A stretch of DNA of 12,505 bases from a bacterium BMS3Bbin07 (GTDB lineage: Bacteria > Nitrospirota > Thermodesulfovibrionia > Thermodesulfovibrionales > JdFR-85): NCBI GenBank assembly GCA_002898135.1, contig BDTQ01000274.1, positions 1-12,505 of the forward strand, written 5' to 3'. The notes beneath the pieces were generated by a model. The model saw only the letters and a program-made list of their open reading frames with translations. It was not told where the DNA came from and did no database searches. Made by a program: the position numbers and the translations under genes. This document shows, one piece after another, positions 9,168-12,505 of the stretch; the first letter of the stretch is position 1, and each line of letters opens with the position of its first letter.

Positions 9168-10484
9168 TCATTTGCTCCTTTGACGTATGAAAACCCTTAT
9201 GGGGGTGCCTTTAAAGGTATACTTCTGCCGCAGGAGTCTTTCTATGAACCTGACATGTTCCGGTTTGAAGACCTGGGGATAGTTTACGAACAGGACAAAT
9301 GTCGGTGGTTCGATGTCTGTCTGGGTCATGTAGAATATTTTTGTCTTTTTCCCCTTGTGTGTTGGGAGTAACGATGCTATCTCTGAGACGAATTTGTTAA
9401 GGGCTGAGGTGGATATACGCTTTTTCCGTTCTTTTATAATCTCGTCAACAATGGAAAAGACCTTTGTAATCCTCTTGCGTGAGAGTCCGGATATTGTCAG
9501 GACAGGGGCATATTCAACAAAGCGCAGTTTCCAGTGAACCTCCCTCAGGAGTTCCTTATACCTCTTGTCAGGGTCTTCAATGAGGTCCCACTTGTTAAAG
9601 AGCAGGACGAGTCCTTTCCCATATCTGCTGATCAATGCCGCTATCTTCTGGTCCTGTTCTGATATGCCTTCGCGGGCGTCTATGAGCAGGAGTACTACAT
9701 CGGCCCTCTCTATACTCCTGACCACCCTGATAATCATGAATTTCTCCAGCGAGTGGTCTGCTATCTTTGATTTCCGGCGTAGTCCAGCGGTATCAATGAT
9801 GATGTATTCCTTTCCGTAATATTTACAGATACTGTCAACGGAATCCCGTGTAGTCCCTGGTTCACTACTTACAATCATTCGATCCTTTCCAAGCAGGGAG
9901 TTAACAAAGGTGGACTTTCCAACATTCGGCTTACCCACAATGGCAATTCCCGGCAGACCCTCGACGGCCTTTTCAACAGCCTCTTTTTCAGGCAGGTTTT
10001 CAAGAACTTTTTCCATGAACTCGGCAAAACCGTACCCTGTGGCTGCAGATGCGGGAATCAGTTCATCGACTCCGAGGGAATAGAAGTCAAAGAGCCTGTC
10101 CTCCCTGTTGCGGGCGTCTATTTTGTTGACCACAAAGAGGACCTTTTTGTTTACAGGTCTCATCATGCCGACAATCTGTCTGTCCAGTTCTGTAAGGCCT
10201 TCTTTTCCGTCAAGGAGTAATACTATAAGGTCAGCCTCCTCTATGGCAAACATGGCCTGCTGTCTGGTCTGAATCAGAATCTCCTCATCTGTCTCAGGAA
10301 AGAGGCCGCCCGTATCTATGACGATAAATTCCCTCTCGTCATAGGTGGCTTCCTCGTAAATCCTGTCCCTCGTGACACCGGGGATGTCTTCAACTATGGC
10401 CTTGTGTGTGCGGGTCATTCTGTTGAAGAGCGTGGATTTGCCCACATTGGGCCTTCCGATTATTGCGATTACAGGTTTAGGCAT
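9168..10484 (-). CDS. der: Ribosome-associated GTPase Der (EngA)
   Basis: A 438-residue double-GTPase needed for 50S subunit assembly. The first G domain shows GRPNVGKST (10-18), GVTRD (36-40), DTGG (57-60), NKID (120-123) and a G5-like SAA (146-148). The second shows GKPNVGKST (184-192), GTTRD (210-214), DTAG (231-234) and NKWD (297-300); its G5 reads ISGLSRKR rather than the usual SA. A KH-like domain fills about 351-438. Length and order are canonical. The ATG gives the conserved start PVIAIIGRPNVGKST. No Shine-Dalgarno is visible, and an extended -10 lies so close that the mRNA may be leaderless. It is followed by the coupled small barrel gene. Confidence 0.97.
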   Translation of the reverse strand: MPKPVIAIIGRPNVGKSTLFNRMTRTHKAIVEDIPGVTRDRIYEEATYDEREFIVIDTGGLFPETDEEILIQTRQQAMFAIEEADLIVLLLDGKEGLTELDRQIVGMMRPVNKKVLFVVNKIDARNREDRLFDFYSLGVDELIPASAATGYGFAEFMEKVLENLPEKEAVEKAVEGLPGIAIVGKPNVGKSTFVNSLLGKDRMIVSSEPGTTRDSVDSICKYYGKEYIIIDTAGLRRKSKIADHSLEKFMIIRVVRSIERADVVLLLIDAREGISEQDQKIAALISRYGKGLVLLFNKWDLIEDPDKRYKELLREVHWKLRFVEYAPVLTISGLSRKRITKVFSIVDEIIKERKKRISTSALNKFVSEIASLLPTHKGKKTKIFYMTQTDIEPPTFVLFVNYPQVFKPEHVRFIERLLRQKYTFKGTPIRVFIRQRSK

Positions 10485-10568: not shown

Positions 10569-10594
10569 GTAGGGGCAACCCCCTGTGGTTGCCC
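10569..10594 (+). repeat. REP copy A1 (GTAG foot plus hairpin)
   Basis: A 26-nt unit: foot GTAG (10569-10572), then stem GGGCAACC (10573-10580), loop CCCTGT and GGTTGCCC (10587-10594), 8 perfect pairs. The GTAG tetranucleotide 5' of an imperfect palindrome is the hallmark of REP sequences bound and cut by RAYT proteins. It is identical to the junction copy at 11295. Confidence 0.85.
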
Positions 10595-10629
10595 GTTCGT
10601 TTGTCTTCGTTTTAGGACGGCAACAGATA

Positions 10630-10655
10630 GGGCATGCACAGGGGCCGGCCCCTAC
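10630..10655 (-). repeat. REP copy A2, inverted partner of A1
   Basis: On the minus strand this is again 26 nt beginning GTAGGGGC and sharing CCCCTGTG and TGCCC with A1 at the same positions. The arms differ in the centre of the stem. Part of it is a 14-bp perfect palindrome, AGGGGCCGGCCCCT (10640-10653). With A1 it forms a BIME-like inverted pair with 35 nt between units, starting 9 nt after the transposase stop codon. Confidence 0.8.
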
Positions 10656-10664
10656 GGTTCGATT

Positions 10665-11780
10665 TTATGCATAATATTCGTCATCCTGCCATTTCAGAGG
10701 ATTGGTTTGTATGTATTCTGATATCTGATAATACGATTTTTCATCACGGATAATATGCTCGAAATAATTGCGTTGCCATAATTTTTTGTTAAATCGAGGC
10801 CAATCATTATTTTTAACCCCGTCTGTATACCGTTTTGTGGTTAATGTTTTAACCCGATGTACAATATCGGATAATGTCATCGTAGGGGCAACCCCCCGTG
10901 GTTGCCCTATCCTTTTTTGTATTTGCCCGTTTTGTATTTGCCCGTCAACATCAGGGCAGGCACGGGTTGGGCAAGACATTGGGCAGGCACAGGGGCCAGC
11001 CCCTACGGGATTGGATATCGTTTGAATGATTCCATGAACATGATTTGGCATAACAATAAATTCGTGGATATTGAATTCATGATAATATTCCGGGATTTTA
11101 TGCCATACGGTTTTGATCATTATGCCCGCATCATTCAAAACCATTTCTCCTTCTTTAATCTCCCCGAACAAACACGATCGGTTTTGTGTGCAAATGGTTA
11201 TGAAATATAATCCCGCCTGTGAATAATCATATCCCCTCAATCGAATGGAACGGCGGTGATGAATATCAGGATTAAAAATCGTCACAAGTTCACGGTAGGG
11301 GCAACCCCCTGTGGTTGCCCGTTTGTTGTTTGTCTCAAAAATAAAATCTATCTCTACGGGTGCGTTCATTGGCAGGACAGCGACACCGATGGCTGTTCTT
11401 GTGTGAACACCGCGCGCTCCGAATATCTCCCTGAGCAGGTCAGAGGCTGCATTCAGTACTGCCGGCTGTTCACGGAAGTTTGTCTCTGAGGCAATATAAC
11501 CGTTCAGCCTGATGCACCTGCTGATATTTTCGAGACCGCAGGTCTCCTTGACGATTGCGAGGGCATTAACCACTATCCGGCGTGCTGCCTCTCTTGCGGT
11601 ATCAATATCGACATCCTTACCAACAATACCCTCTGCAAGCAGGGCCCCGTCCTTCAGGGGTAATATTCCGCTGAGAAAGAGCAGATTTCCGGTCTTCAGG
11701 GCAGGGGTGTAAGAGCCAAGTGGTGTGGGCGCTTCAGGGAGTTCTATTGCGAGTTCCATGAGCCGTTCTTCTATCAACAT
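10665..11780 (-). CDS. RidA-family protein fused in frame to REP-associated tyrosine transposase
   Basis: One 371-codon frame with two unrelated parts. Residues 1-150 form a RidA/YjgF/UK114 enamine-imine deaminase-like domain (LGSYTPALKTGNLLFLSG at 21-38, GVHTRTAIGVAVLPMNAPVEI at 124-144), complete except about the last residue before a normal stop. Residues about 150-165 (TNNKRATTGGCPYREL) are encoded by a REP. From V166, VTIFNPDIHHRRSIRLRGYDYS starts a Y1_Tnp/RAYT domain with HUH motif H247-V-H249 (MPNHVHGII) and catalytic Tyr, probably Y339, in LWQRNYFEHIIRDE. Residues about 257-299 are a REP-encoded insert rich in Gly/Pro/Cys. The transposase may also start at the in-frame GTG codon V166 (11285). 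RAYTs cleave and join single-stranded REP DNA; RidA detoxifies reactive enamines. Whether the fusion protein is made is unknown. Confidence 0.85.
   Translation of the reverse strand: MLIEERLMELAIELPEAPTPLGSYTPALKTGNLLFLSGILPLKDGALLAEGIVGKDVDIDTAREAARRIVVNALAIVKETCGLENISRCIRLNGYIASETNFREQPAVLNAASDLLREIFGARGVHTRTAIGVAVLPMNAPVEIDFIFETNNKRATTGGCPYRELVTIFNPDIHHRRSIRLRGYDYSQAGLYFITICTQNRSCLFGEIKEGEMVLNDAGIMIKTVWHKIPEYYHEFNIHEFIVMPNHVHGIIQTISNPVGAGPCACPMSCPTRACPDVDGQIQNGQIQKRIGQPRGVAPTMTLSDIVHRVKTLTTKRYTDGVKNNDWPRFNKKLWQRNYFEHIIRDEKSYYQISEYIQTNPLKWQDDEYYA
10882..10907 (+). repeat. REP copy B1, inside the transposase frame
   Basis: A 26-nt unit, foot GTAG (10882-10885), stem GGGCAACC (10886-10893) and GGTTGCCC (10900-10907), with the loop reading CCCCGT. 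It differs from A1 and the junction copy at one base. It is translated on the minus strand as part of GQPRGVAPT. Confidence 0.85.
10915..10944. repeat. Two perfect 15-nt tandem copies within the RAYT frame
   Basis: TTTTGTATTTGCCCG occurs at 10915-10929 and again at 10930-10944 without a mismatch. Being 5 codons long, the duplication keeps the frame and appears as GQIQN-GQIQK in the protein. Perfect identity suggests a recent slippage or duplication event. Confidence 0.9.
10981..11006 (-). repeat. REP copy B2, inverted partner of B1
   Basis: On the minus strand it begins GTAGGGGC and follows the same 26-nt frame as the other units (CCCCTGTG and TGCCC conserved). It forms an inverted pair with B1 across 73 nt. 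A degenerate extra copy of its outer part, GGGCAGGCAC, lies at 10954-10963, exactly 27 nt away, so the reading frame is preserved. It encodes PVGAGPCACP. Confidence 0.8.
11295..11320 (+). repeat. REP copy C at the RidA/RAYT junction
   Basis: Identical over 26 nt to REP A1: GTAG foot (11295-11298), stem GGGCAACC (11299-11306), GGTTGCCC (11313-11320). It is a single unit; no inverted partner lies nearby. It is translated on the minus strand as RATTGGCPY, linking the RidA domain to the transposase. Confidence 0.88.
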
Positions 11781-11828: not shown

Positions 11829-12505
11829 TTAAACAGTGACTAACTCGTATTGTCTGCTGCCGAGGCCGAGACGTTCAGCCTCTGATACCTGTAATTCATA
11901 GGGTTTACTATGGAGCCCTTTAAATATATCGCCCTCTTCATCCATTTCTTCAGCCATGGAGGACGGCAGGTGCTTTTCTTTCAGAACAAGGTCAATGGAG
12001 GCCTGTTCAATGGCAACTATGTCATTGCTTAACAATATGCCGATGTCCTGAACAACAGGCACATCAGCTGCCGGCATGCAGTCACACTCAGGCTGGATCT
12101 CGGTGAGGAAGTTTATGTAAATTATCTTGTCGGGCCTGAAGGTTTTAAGTACAACCATGGCAGCCTCTGCCAAGGCCCTCATGAACCTTTCGTCATCTCC
12201 CGGCAGGTGGATGGCCCCTGCCTGACATCCCCTTTCACAGCGGCCGCATCTCCAGCAGTGCTCCTTGTCCCACCTGAGTTTATTATCTTTGAATGCAAGC
12301 AATTCAAGGGGACAGAGCTCCACGCATTGCATGCAGTAGTTACAGAACTCCATATTCCATGTAAGCTCTCCCTCTCCGATGGTATGCATGGAGCCCCTGC
12401 CGCATTTCCATCCGCACTCTCTGTGAGAGGAGCTTACACCACCCATGGCCATGTTCTTTATTGCCCCGGCATATCCGGCATTTATATGTCCCTTTACATG
12501 GGAGC
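11829..12505 (-). CDS. DUF362 family 2x[4Fe-4S] ferredoxin-type protein, 5' end cut off
   Basis: The C-terminal part of a DUF362 protein; its start lies beyond the window's right end. The open frame continues upstream of the first internal ATG (12452) to the edge and encodes SHVKGHINAGYAGAIKNMAMGG, the diagnostic DUF362 SHxKGH...GAIKN block, so that ATG is not the true start. Counting from it, two [4Fe-4S] motifs follow: C37/C40/C43/C47-Pro and C66/C69/C72/C76. Later DIGILLSNDIVAIEQASIDLV and the LGLGSRQYELV tail are also typical. The function of DUF362 proteins is poorly known; an electron-transfer or metal-centre role in anaerobes is inferred. It lies 48 nt upstream of ridA on the same strand with no terminator visible, so co-transcription is plausible. 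Confidence 0.88.
   Translation of the reverse strand, partial: SHVKGHINAGYAGAIKNMAMGGVSSSHRECGWKCGRGSMHTIGEGELTWNMEFCNYCMQCVELCPLELLAFKDNKLRWDKEHCWRCGRCERGCQAGAIHLPGDDERFMRALAEAAMVVLKTFRPDKIIYINFLTEIQPECDCMPAADVPVVQDIGILLSNDIVAIEQASIDLVLKEKHLPSSMAEEMDEEGDIFKGLHSKPYELQVSEAERLGLGSRQYELVTV

Follow-up and report, generated by a model that had tools for sequence, protein, structure and literature searches.

The frame at the centre of this study raises the question of whether a host gene and a transposase gene may have been caught in the act of joining and, if so, by what route. The window that we analysed is a stretch of 12,505 nt from a Nitrospirota MAG (G000 below; 309 contigs, 84% complete). 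On the minus strand, a single frame of 371 codons runs from an ATG at 11780 to a TAA at 10665 and would encode a 371-residue product of 41.9 kDa (calculated); the plus-strand frame over the same interval, 10665-11780, is not open, with 8 stops. The product consists of a Rid-family domain (residues 1-149; 11334-11780, minus strand), a REP-encoded linker (residues 150-167, TNNKRATTGGCPYRELVT; 11280-11333, minus strand) and a RAYT/TnpA_REP domain (residues 168-371; 10668-11279, minus strand). An earlier note on this DNA had described such an uninterrupted frame, with an HVH motif and a candidate catalytic Tyr in the RAYT part, and had taken both domains to be intact; the frame itself, Pfam and alignment to the E. 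coli RAYT structure 4er8 confirm the description, and both domains look complete by Pfam and PDB comparison. Upstream lies a DUF362/ferredoxin-type gene (11829-12503, minus strand; Pfam), 48 nt from ridA and probably its operon partner, and downstream lies der, encoding the EngA GTPase (9168-10484, minus strand; Pfam), which is also the next gene in four other genomes of the genus (G001, G003, G004 and G005).

The N-terminal part belongs to the Rid family of the PF14588 type, with a significant full-length profile match to YjgF_endoribonc (PF14588; 6.5e-21, residues 4-141, profile positions 1-139 of 148), a further match to Ribonuc_L-PSP (PF01042; 3.5e-12, residues 16-147) and a match of residues 2-149 to the Rid protein 3d01 in the PDB (5.5e-34). 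NCBIfam TIGR00004 scored 41.8 against a cut-off of 106.25, and thus the Rid part falls outside that narrower subfamily. The conserved Arg is Arg128, within an xRxxxGVAxLP motif in which HTRTAIGVAVLP aligns to HARAAVGMASLP (3d01) and PARAVVGVAALP (2cwj); we take it to be equivalent to Arg105 of E. coli RidA. The last conserved RidA motif, VEIDFIFE, occupies residues 142-149, and past Glu149 the frame runs on for 222 residues.

The C-terminal part matches Pfam Y1_Tnp (PF01797) at 4e-08 over residues 298-359, passing the Pfam cut-off. NCBIfam REP_Tyr_transpos reached 68.5 bits in two stretches, below its cut-off of 80, and the low score probably arises because a REP-encoded insert splits the match. 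A 29-row RAYT profile compared with the PDB found the E. coli RAYT-REP complex 4er8 at 2.7e-05; in the alignment, HVH (residues 247-249; 11034-11042, minus strand) stands opposite HMH, and the candidate catalytic Tyr356 (10713-10715, minus strand) stands opposite the Tyr that, counted along the chain, is Y115. The Y115F protein is a catalytic mutant of the E. coli RAYT, according to PMC8266576. When the RAYT domain was modelled (mean pLDDT 72.7, pTM 0.66), the HUH elements were at good confidence, and the REP-encoded insert that separates HUH from Tyr (about residues 259-298; 10887-11006, minus strand) was predicted to be disordered, with pLDDT below 50 nearly throughout. The 30 best structural matches of this model were IS200/IS605-type transposases and 4er8 (rank 7), with E values of 3e-05 to 2e-03 and query TM-scores of 0.34-0.47. 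Thus alignment and model together place an HUH motif and a catalytic Tyr within a Y1 transposase fold, as in RAYT/TnpA_REP proteins. Mixed alignments (A1, A3, A4) put RidA rows on RAYT columns, and therefore the whole fusion was modelled from RAYT rows only; its RidA half, with no alignment rows there, had low pLDDT. Finally, two sister species have RAYTs at this locus that share 82-83% identity with the RAYT part. Judged by sequence, the fused frame is more than chance, given this identity and the significant matches for both domains, and HVH, the candidate Tyr356 and the core are kept in the fused RAYT.

Five GTAG-tagged REPs lie at 10569-11320: REP 1 in the linker (11295-11320, plus strand; an 8-bp hairpin as DNA), an inverted pair inside the RAYT frame (REP 2, 10882-10907, plus strand; REP 3, 10981-11006, minus strand), and a second inverted pair, REP 4 just behind the RAYT stop (10630-10655, minus strand) and REP 5 (10569-10594, plus strand). 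Four of the five form clear hairpins as DNA, and REP 4 does not beat its shuffles. The RAYT gene is thus flanked by GTAG-tagged palindromes, as in a REPtron. Both REP types of the locus, read in the RAYT direction, are free of stops in all three frames, so that a REP makes an easy linker. The cognate REPs have hardly spread, since nearly all copies are in the locus: with one mismatch allowed, the locus accounts for 5 of the 6 copies in each of G000 and G003 (the latter 99% complete) and for all 5 in G004, while there is one copy in G002 and none in G001 or G005. REPtrons in species without a REP family were already known, as described in PMC3733652. The sole REP-like copy outside the locus in G000 (L115 835-860, contig G000:C86) is a variant, AGACCC..., between maf-like and UvrD/PcrA-like helicase genes (named by eye); single variant copies also occur in G002 and G003.

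How did the two genes come to share a frame? Among six genomes of the genus (G000-G005), the REP-RAYT-REP module lies between ridA and der in the window, G003 and G004, and the site is empty in G001 and G005, where the ends of ridA read FEVD or FELG and the distance to der is 89 nt (G001) or 187 nt (G005). The module sits at the last ridA codons, in agreement with the junction proposed earlier. In G003, ridA has 180 codons, and its REP-encoded tail ends GIVQ-TGA, with the TGA overlapping the RAYT ATG (ATGA); the same overlap is found in G004. Over 25 RidA loci, G003 included, the tail after VExxFIF was 3-9 residues in 23 of the 24 others and 18 in one, and 32 residues in G003. The ridA of G004 (L002 1059-1268 and 1268-1567) is broken by a 2-nt insertion near codon 62, either real decay or a MAG error. 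G002 (80% complete) gave no ridA match; its RAYT fragment (L114 2554-2997) is located elsewhere, at a contig end and following an hsdS-like end, and carries a tandem SKPAHAVSR/SKPIHAVSR in its N-terminal half.

Database relatives had the same unfused arrangement. The closest RAYT among the best 120 of 5424 matches listed is IEMM0007_1778 (215 aa, starting MIFNPD). Among the best 120 of 940 matches listed for the G003 RidA, the best, P0124, likewise has a REP tail, and the second, IEMM0007_1777 (167 aa), has the REP tail ...GQPQGVALTVNL, ending ...TVNL. The two IEMM0007 proteins bear consecutive tags, come from contigs of identical length and are separate genes, known from the proteins alone. 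The earlier note had reasoned that relatives whose ridA has its own stop would point to an error in the sequence. Such relatives exist (G003, G004 and the IEMM0007 pair); they weaken the case for a conserved fusion and make an assembly error possible, although the fused frame stands as a fact of this sequence.

An alignment of five genomes located the change. Right after the GAG of Glu149, between 11334 and 11333, the window lacks the 5 nt GTGAG found in G003 and G004, and an ACG (Thr167; 11280-11282, minus strand) stands opposite their RAYT ATG. The loss of 5 nt is sufficient to place ridA in frame with RAYT. The earlier reading of ridA, GQPQGVAPTVNL-TGA, persists out of frame in the window, with 1 of 12 residues different from the IEMM0007_1777 tail; the TGA of this reading (11282-11284, minus strand) fits the TVNL end of P0125. 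Since the genes are separate in the sisters and database relatives, and the sites are empty in G001 and G005, the fusion is secondary and later than the landing of the module. Thus the module did not remove the ridA stop when it landed, as had been supposed, given that the ridA genes of G003 and G004 keep a REP-encoded tail and a TGA. The suggestion that RAYT would be tied to ridA does hold in the window, where the two form one continuous frame. The fused state is so far found in one MAG only.

ATGA overlaps can couple translation of adjacent genes, and re-initiation after ridA would be the natural reading for RAYT translation in G003 and G004. In the predicted RNA folds, the RAYT start codon lies in the loop of a 10-bp hairpin in G003 (L003 1540-1567) and G004 (L002 1552-1579), a hairpin absent from the fold of the window; with modest z-scores for the junction (-2.29 in G003, -1.39 in G004 and -1.51 in the window), this is suggestive only. 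In the window, a GTG (Val166; 11283-11285, minus strand) just upstream of the ACG is a possible internal start; by eye, it has no strong ribosome site upstream and no nearby in-frame stop for re-initiation. With the old stop out of frame, the ATG gone and the GTG without an evident ribosome site, the fused product is predicted to be the likeliest. Expression of RAYTs from upstream read-through has been argued in PMC3733652.

We examined selection on the three genes that G000, G003 and G004 share at this site. Pairwise dN/dS over the RAYT core (160 codons) was 0.18 (G000-G003), 0.24 (G000-G004) and 0.17 (G003-G004), with all upper 95% limits below 0.45. When the REP insert was included, the whole RAYT gave 0.29, 0.41 and 0.21, respectively; the insert itself gave 0.49-1.33 with wide limits, and the short part behind it gave 0.31 for G000-G004 (limits 0.05-1.34). 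The corresponding values were 0.07-0.09 for der and 0.12-0.16 for ridA. By these ratios, the RAYT core is under purifying selection. Moreover, dS in the RAYT core (0.18-0.27) is near, if slightly below, that of ridA (0.26-0.30) and der (0.24-0.29), and therefore RAYT has most likely been at this site since the common ancestor, by vertical inheritance. The core ratios that involve G000 are not clearly different from that of the unfused pair and are neutral as to a function of the fusion itself; because the fusion may have arisen at any point on the G000 branch, core dN/dS does not show selection for the fusion. The insert varies in length among the species (132, 165 and 141 nt), and the rest of the RAYT frame in the window is intact.

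Searches for a second fusion found none within their scope. Among the best 120 of 5424 matches listed for the whole fused protein, coverage of the query never exceeds 65%, and no match spans both domains; residues 1-158, compared with proteins of about 204-649 aa, gave 3 matches, none with Y1_Tnp. A scan of genome contigs kept 80 loci; in 75 of them the match begins at residue 153 or beyond, and in the other five (L049, L053, L089, L094, L100) it begins at residues 101-146. When RidA 1-149 was compared with all 80 by tblastn, the one RidA returned was in L106, and a match of 15 residues in L095 was put down to chance. Of 245 genomes of the phylum covered by a profile search, 46 had RAYTs, and the longest open frame among the rows listed was that of the window (387), followed by one of 344 in G074, whose extension is REP peptide with no host domain visible in the translation by eye. 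The RAYT encoded at this G074 locus (L133 1474-2508) has numerous in-frame VGADLRVRPD repeats, both ahead of the domain and within it, a REP expansion as protein repeats. Long open frames around the RidA of G053 (380) and G038 (322) were ruled out as fusions, as each extends upstream across the neighbouring gene in a different frame. Our literature searches found no RidA-RAYT or other host-RAYT fusion.

The L106 locus (534-1479; Planctomycetaceae MAG, JAITKS010000180.1) has, all as separate ORFs, a thioredoxin gene, an unrelated ridA (Ribonuc_L-PSP 3.5e-44), a 43-nt gap that is mostly a GTAG REP palindrome, and a RAYT ORF without its N-terminal part (Y1_Tnp 22.8 bits; cut-off 23). This ridA-REP-RAYT neighbourhood is unfused and unrelated, and perhaps a product of chance.

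We considered that the cell might make RAYT mainly from the internal GTG, as a separate protein, with the fusion rarely used or degraded. The GTG is one codon ahead of the lost ATG, where the relatives start RAYT, and RAYT is a complete enzyme by itself; however, no strong ribosome-binding sequence was seen by eye, the G-rich stretch falls within the REP hairpin, and the stop that might permit re-initiation is out of frame, leaving this reading unlikely. If instead the module were decaying, the fusion would be a neutral accident that precedes the loss of an inactive RAYT. The unspread REPs, the frameshift in the G004 ridA and the lone RAYT piece at a contig end in G002 all fit such decay, but HVH, Tyr and core are retained in a stop-free frame, and the low core dN/dS values speak against it, so that we regard decay as quite unlikely.

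The fusion could also be an error of assembly, binning or strain consensus in a genome where the genes really overlap, as in the sisters. It comes from a single MAG, the G003, G004 and IEMM0007 genes are all pairs of ORFs, and the matches listed hold no independent fused copy; a clean 5-nt loss together with a separate ATG-to-ACG change would nevertheless be an unusual error pattern, and the remaining RAYT frame is intact despite inserts of differing length. We regard an error as very unlikely. At the other extreme, the frame might encode a selected bifunctional protein, in which a RidA trimer gathers RAYT domains, or in which RidA activity depends on the state of REPs or DNA. RidA relatives form trimers, both domains look complete, and the L106 neighbourhood provides a second, unfused ridA-REP-RAYT arrangement in an unrelated MAG. 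Against this, the fusion is confined to one genome, with no homologous fusion among the matches listed; the linker is in another frame than the sister RidA tails, and thus offers no conserved interface; and the L106 RAYT is itself without its N-terminal part. Selected bifunctionality is in our judgement highly improbable.

The explanation that we consider probable is insertion of a REPtron, then overlap, then a later joining of frames, with a 42-kDa fusion as its most likely product. In an ancestor shared by several species of one Nitrospirota genus, a REPtron (a REP, tnpA_REP with internal REPs, and a REP pair) would have entered the ridA-der interval, at the final codons of ridA. As the REP is stop-free in three frames, ridA would have gained a REP-encoded tail ending at a TGA that overlaps the RAYT ATG, and RAYT was then probably translated by ribosomes coming from ridA. 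In the G000 lineage, the 5-nt loss at the end of ridA and the ACG for ATG would have turned the overlap into one frame, whose likeliest product is a single chain in which a flexible REP-encoded linker joins the RidA domain to a RAYT still able to cut REP single strands. The same-site module in two sisters, the overlap, the empty sites, the frame change, the intact catalytic residues and purifying selection on the RAYT core are direct observations; we infer from them that a fusion protein is produced, that its two parts function, as RidA trimer and in REP cutting, and that RAYT depends on ridA translation. Weighing against this explanation, no such fusion appears among the proteins listed (the best 120 of 5424, the best 120 of 940 and the 3 size-filtered matches).

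A single genus thus presents an empty site, an overlapping pair and a fused frame, while purifying selection acts on the RAYT core and the REPs are almost confined to the locus. Together, these three states, the selection on the core and the confined REPs offer a testable answer as to how RAYTs persist, namely that they attach their translation to that of a host gene. A fusion protein, if real, would be a bacterial host-transposase gene fusion caught soon after its origin. A broader proposal, which we regard as doubtful, is that, through a REP tail and a start/stop overlap, a bacterial host gene can capture the REP-cutting transposase next to it as a covalently attached C-terminal domain, such that RAYT synthesis, and perhaps oligomeric state, becomes a property of a conserved metabolic enzyme, and stepwise domestication (insertion, overlap, fusion) is visible in living species.

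Parts of this picture are not new, as REPs within RAYT genes and host genes are already known, and overlap of RAYTs with upstream genes recurs with other genes in our survey. From 85 loci, 65 gave 68 RAYT-like ORFs by a motif filter, which dropped the G003 locus (L003; a Tyr motif without the P of NP). Six of the 68, one of them at the G004 ridA, overlap the upstream ORF by 1-4 nt, a raw count; five more overlap by 10-79 nt, with doubtful listed starts. Pfam, run on four of the six upstream ORFs, identified Methylase_S, ArgJ and a SpoIIAA-like domain, with no match for one. The ridA-RAYT overlap is thus not unique. Unfused RAYT-like starts that overlap the host stop by 1-4 nt were noted at L091 2616, L098 3483, L040 2995 and L097 5908, and the upstream gene of L097 is argJ-like by its C-terminal likeness to L098.

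Compared with known systems, the window both conforms and departs. It shares a full-length match with the Rid family of PF14588 (PDB 3d01, 9bk9, 9bkb), whereas other members, G003 apart, end soon after VExxFIF and the window frame continues into a second domain. Like intragenic REPs and REP-supplied gene ends (PMC3733652, and the Rickettsia RPEs cited there), its palindromic repeat is translated in a host protein, but here the repeat links the host gene with the transposase gene itself. The overlapping pairs of our survey (ridA in G003/G004, hsdS in L091, argJ in L098, the SpoIIAA-like gene in L040) likewise have a RAYT start that overlaps the upstream stop by ATGA, but they are two ORFs where the window has one. 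There is also a likeness to TnpA_REP subclass 2.4, to which we assign the window RAYT by resemblance. According to PMC6006769, subclass 2.4 REPtrons have an HUH motif and one Tyr, GTAG REPs on both sides and, typically, REP insertions inside tnpA_REP, so that the in-frame REPs 2 and 3 (10882-11006) are a subclass trait and no novelty. REP-type peptides between HUH and Tyr also occur in 94 of the best 120 homologues listed (11 of the 120 unscorable by the motifs used), a count inflated by a query that favours such matches. The spacing from H249 to Y356 is likewise enlarged, at 106 residues against a subclass 2.4 median of 88 in PMC6006769. That survey excluded overlong TnpA_REP proteins as gene fusions or annotation errors; relative to the subclass 2.4 members presented there, the window RAYT differs in having an in-frame host domain at its N terminus.
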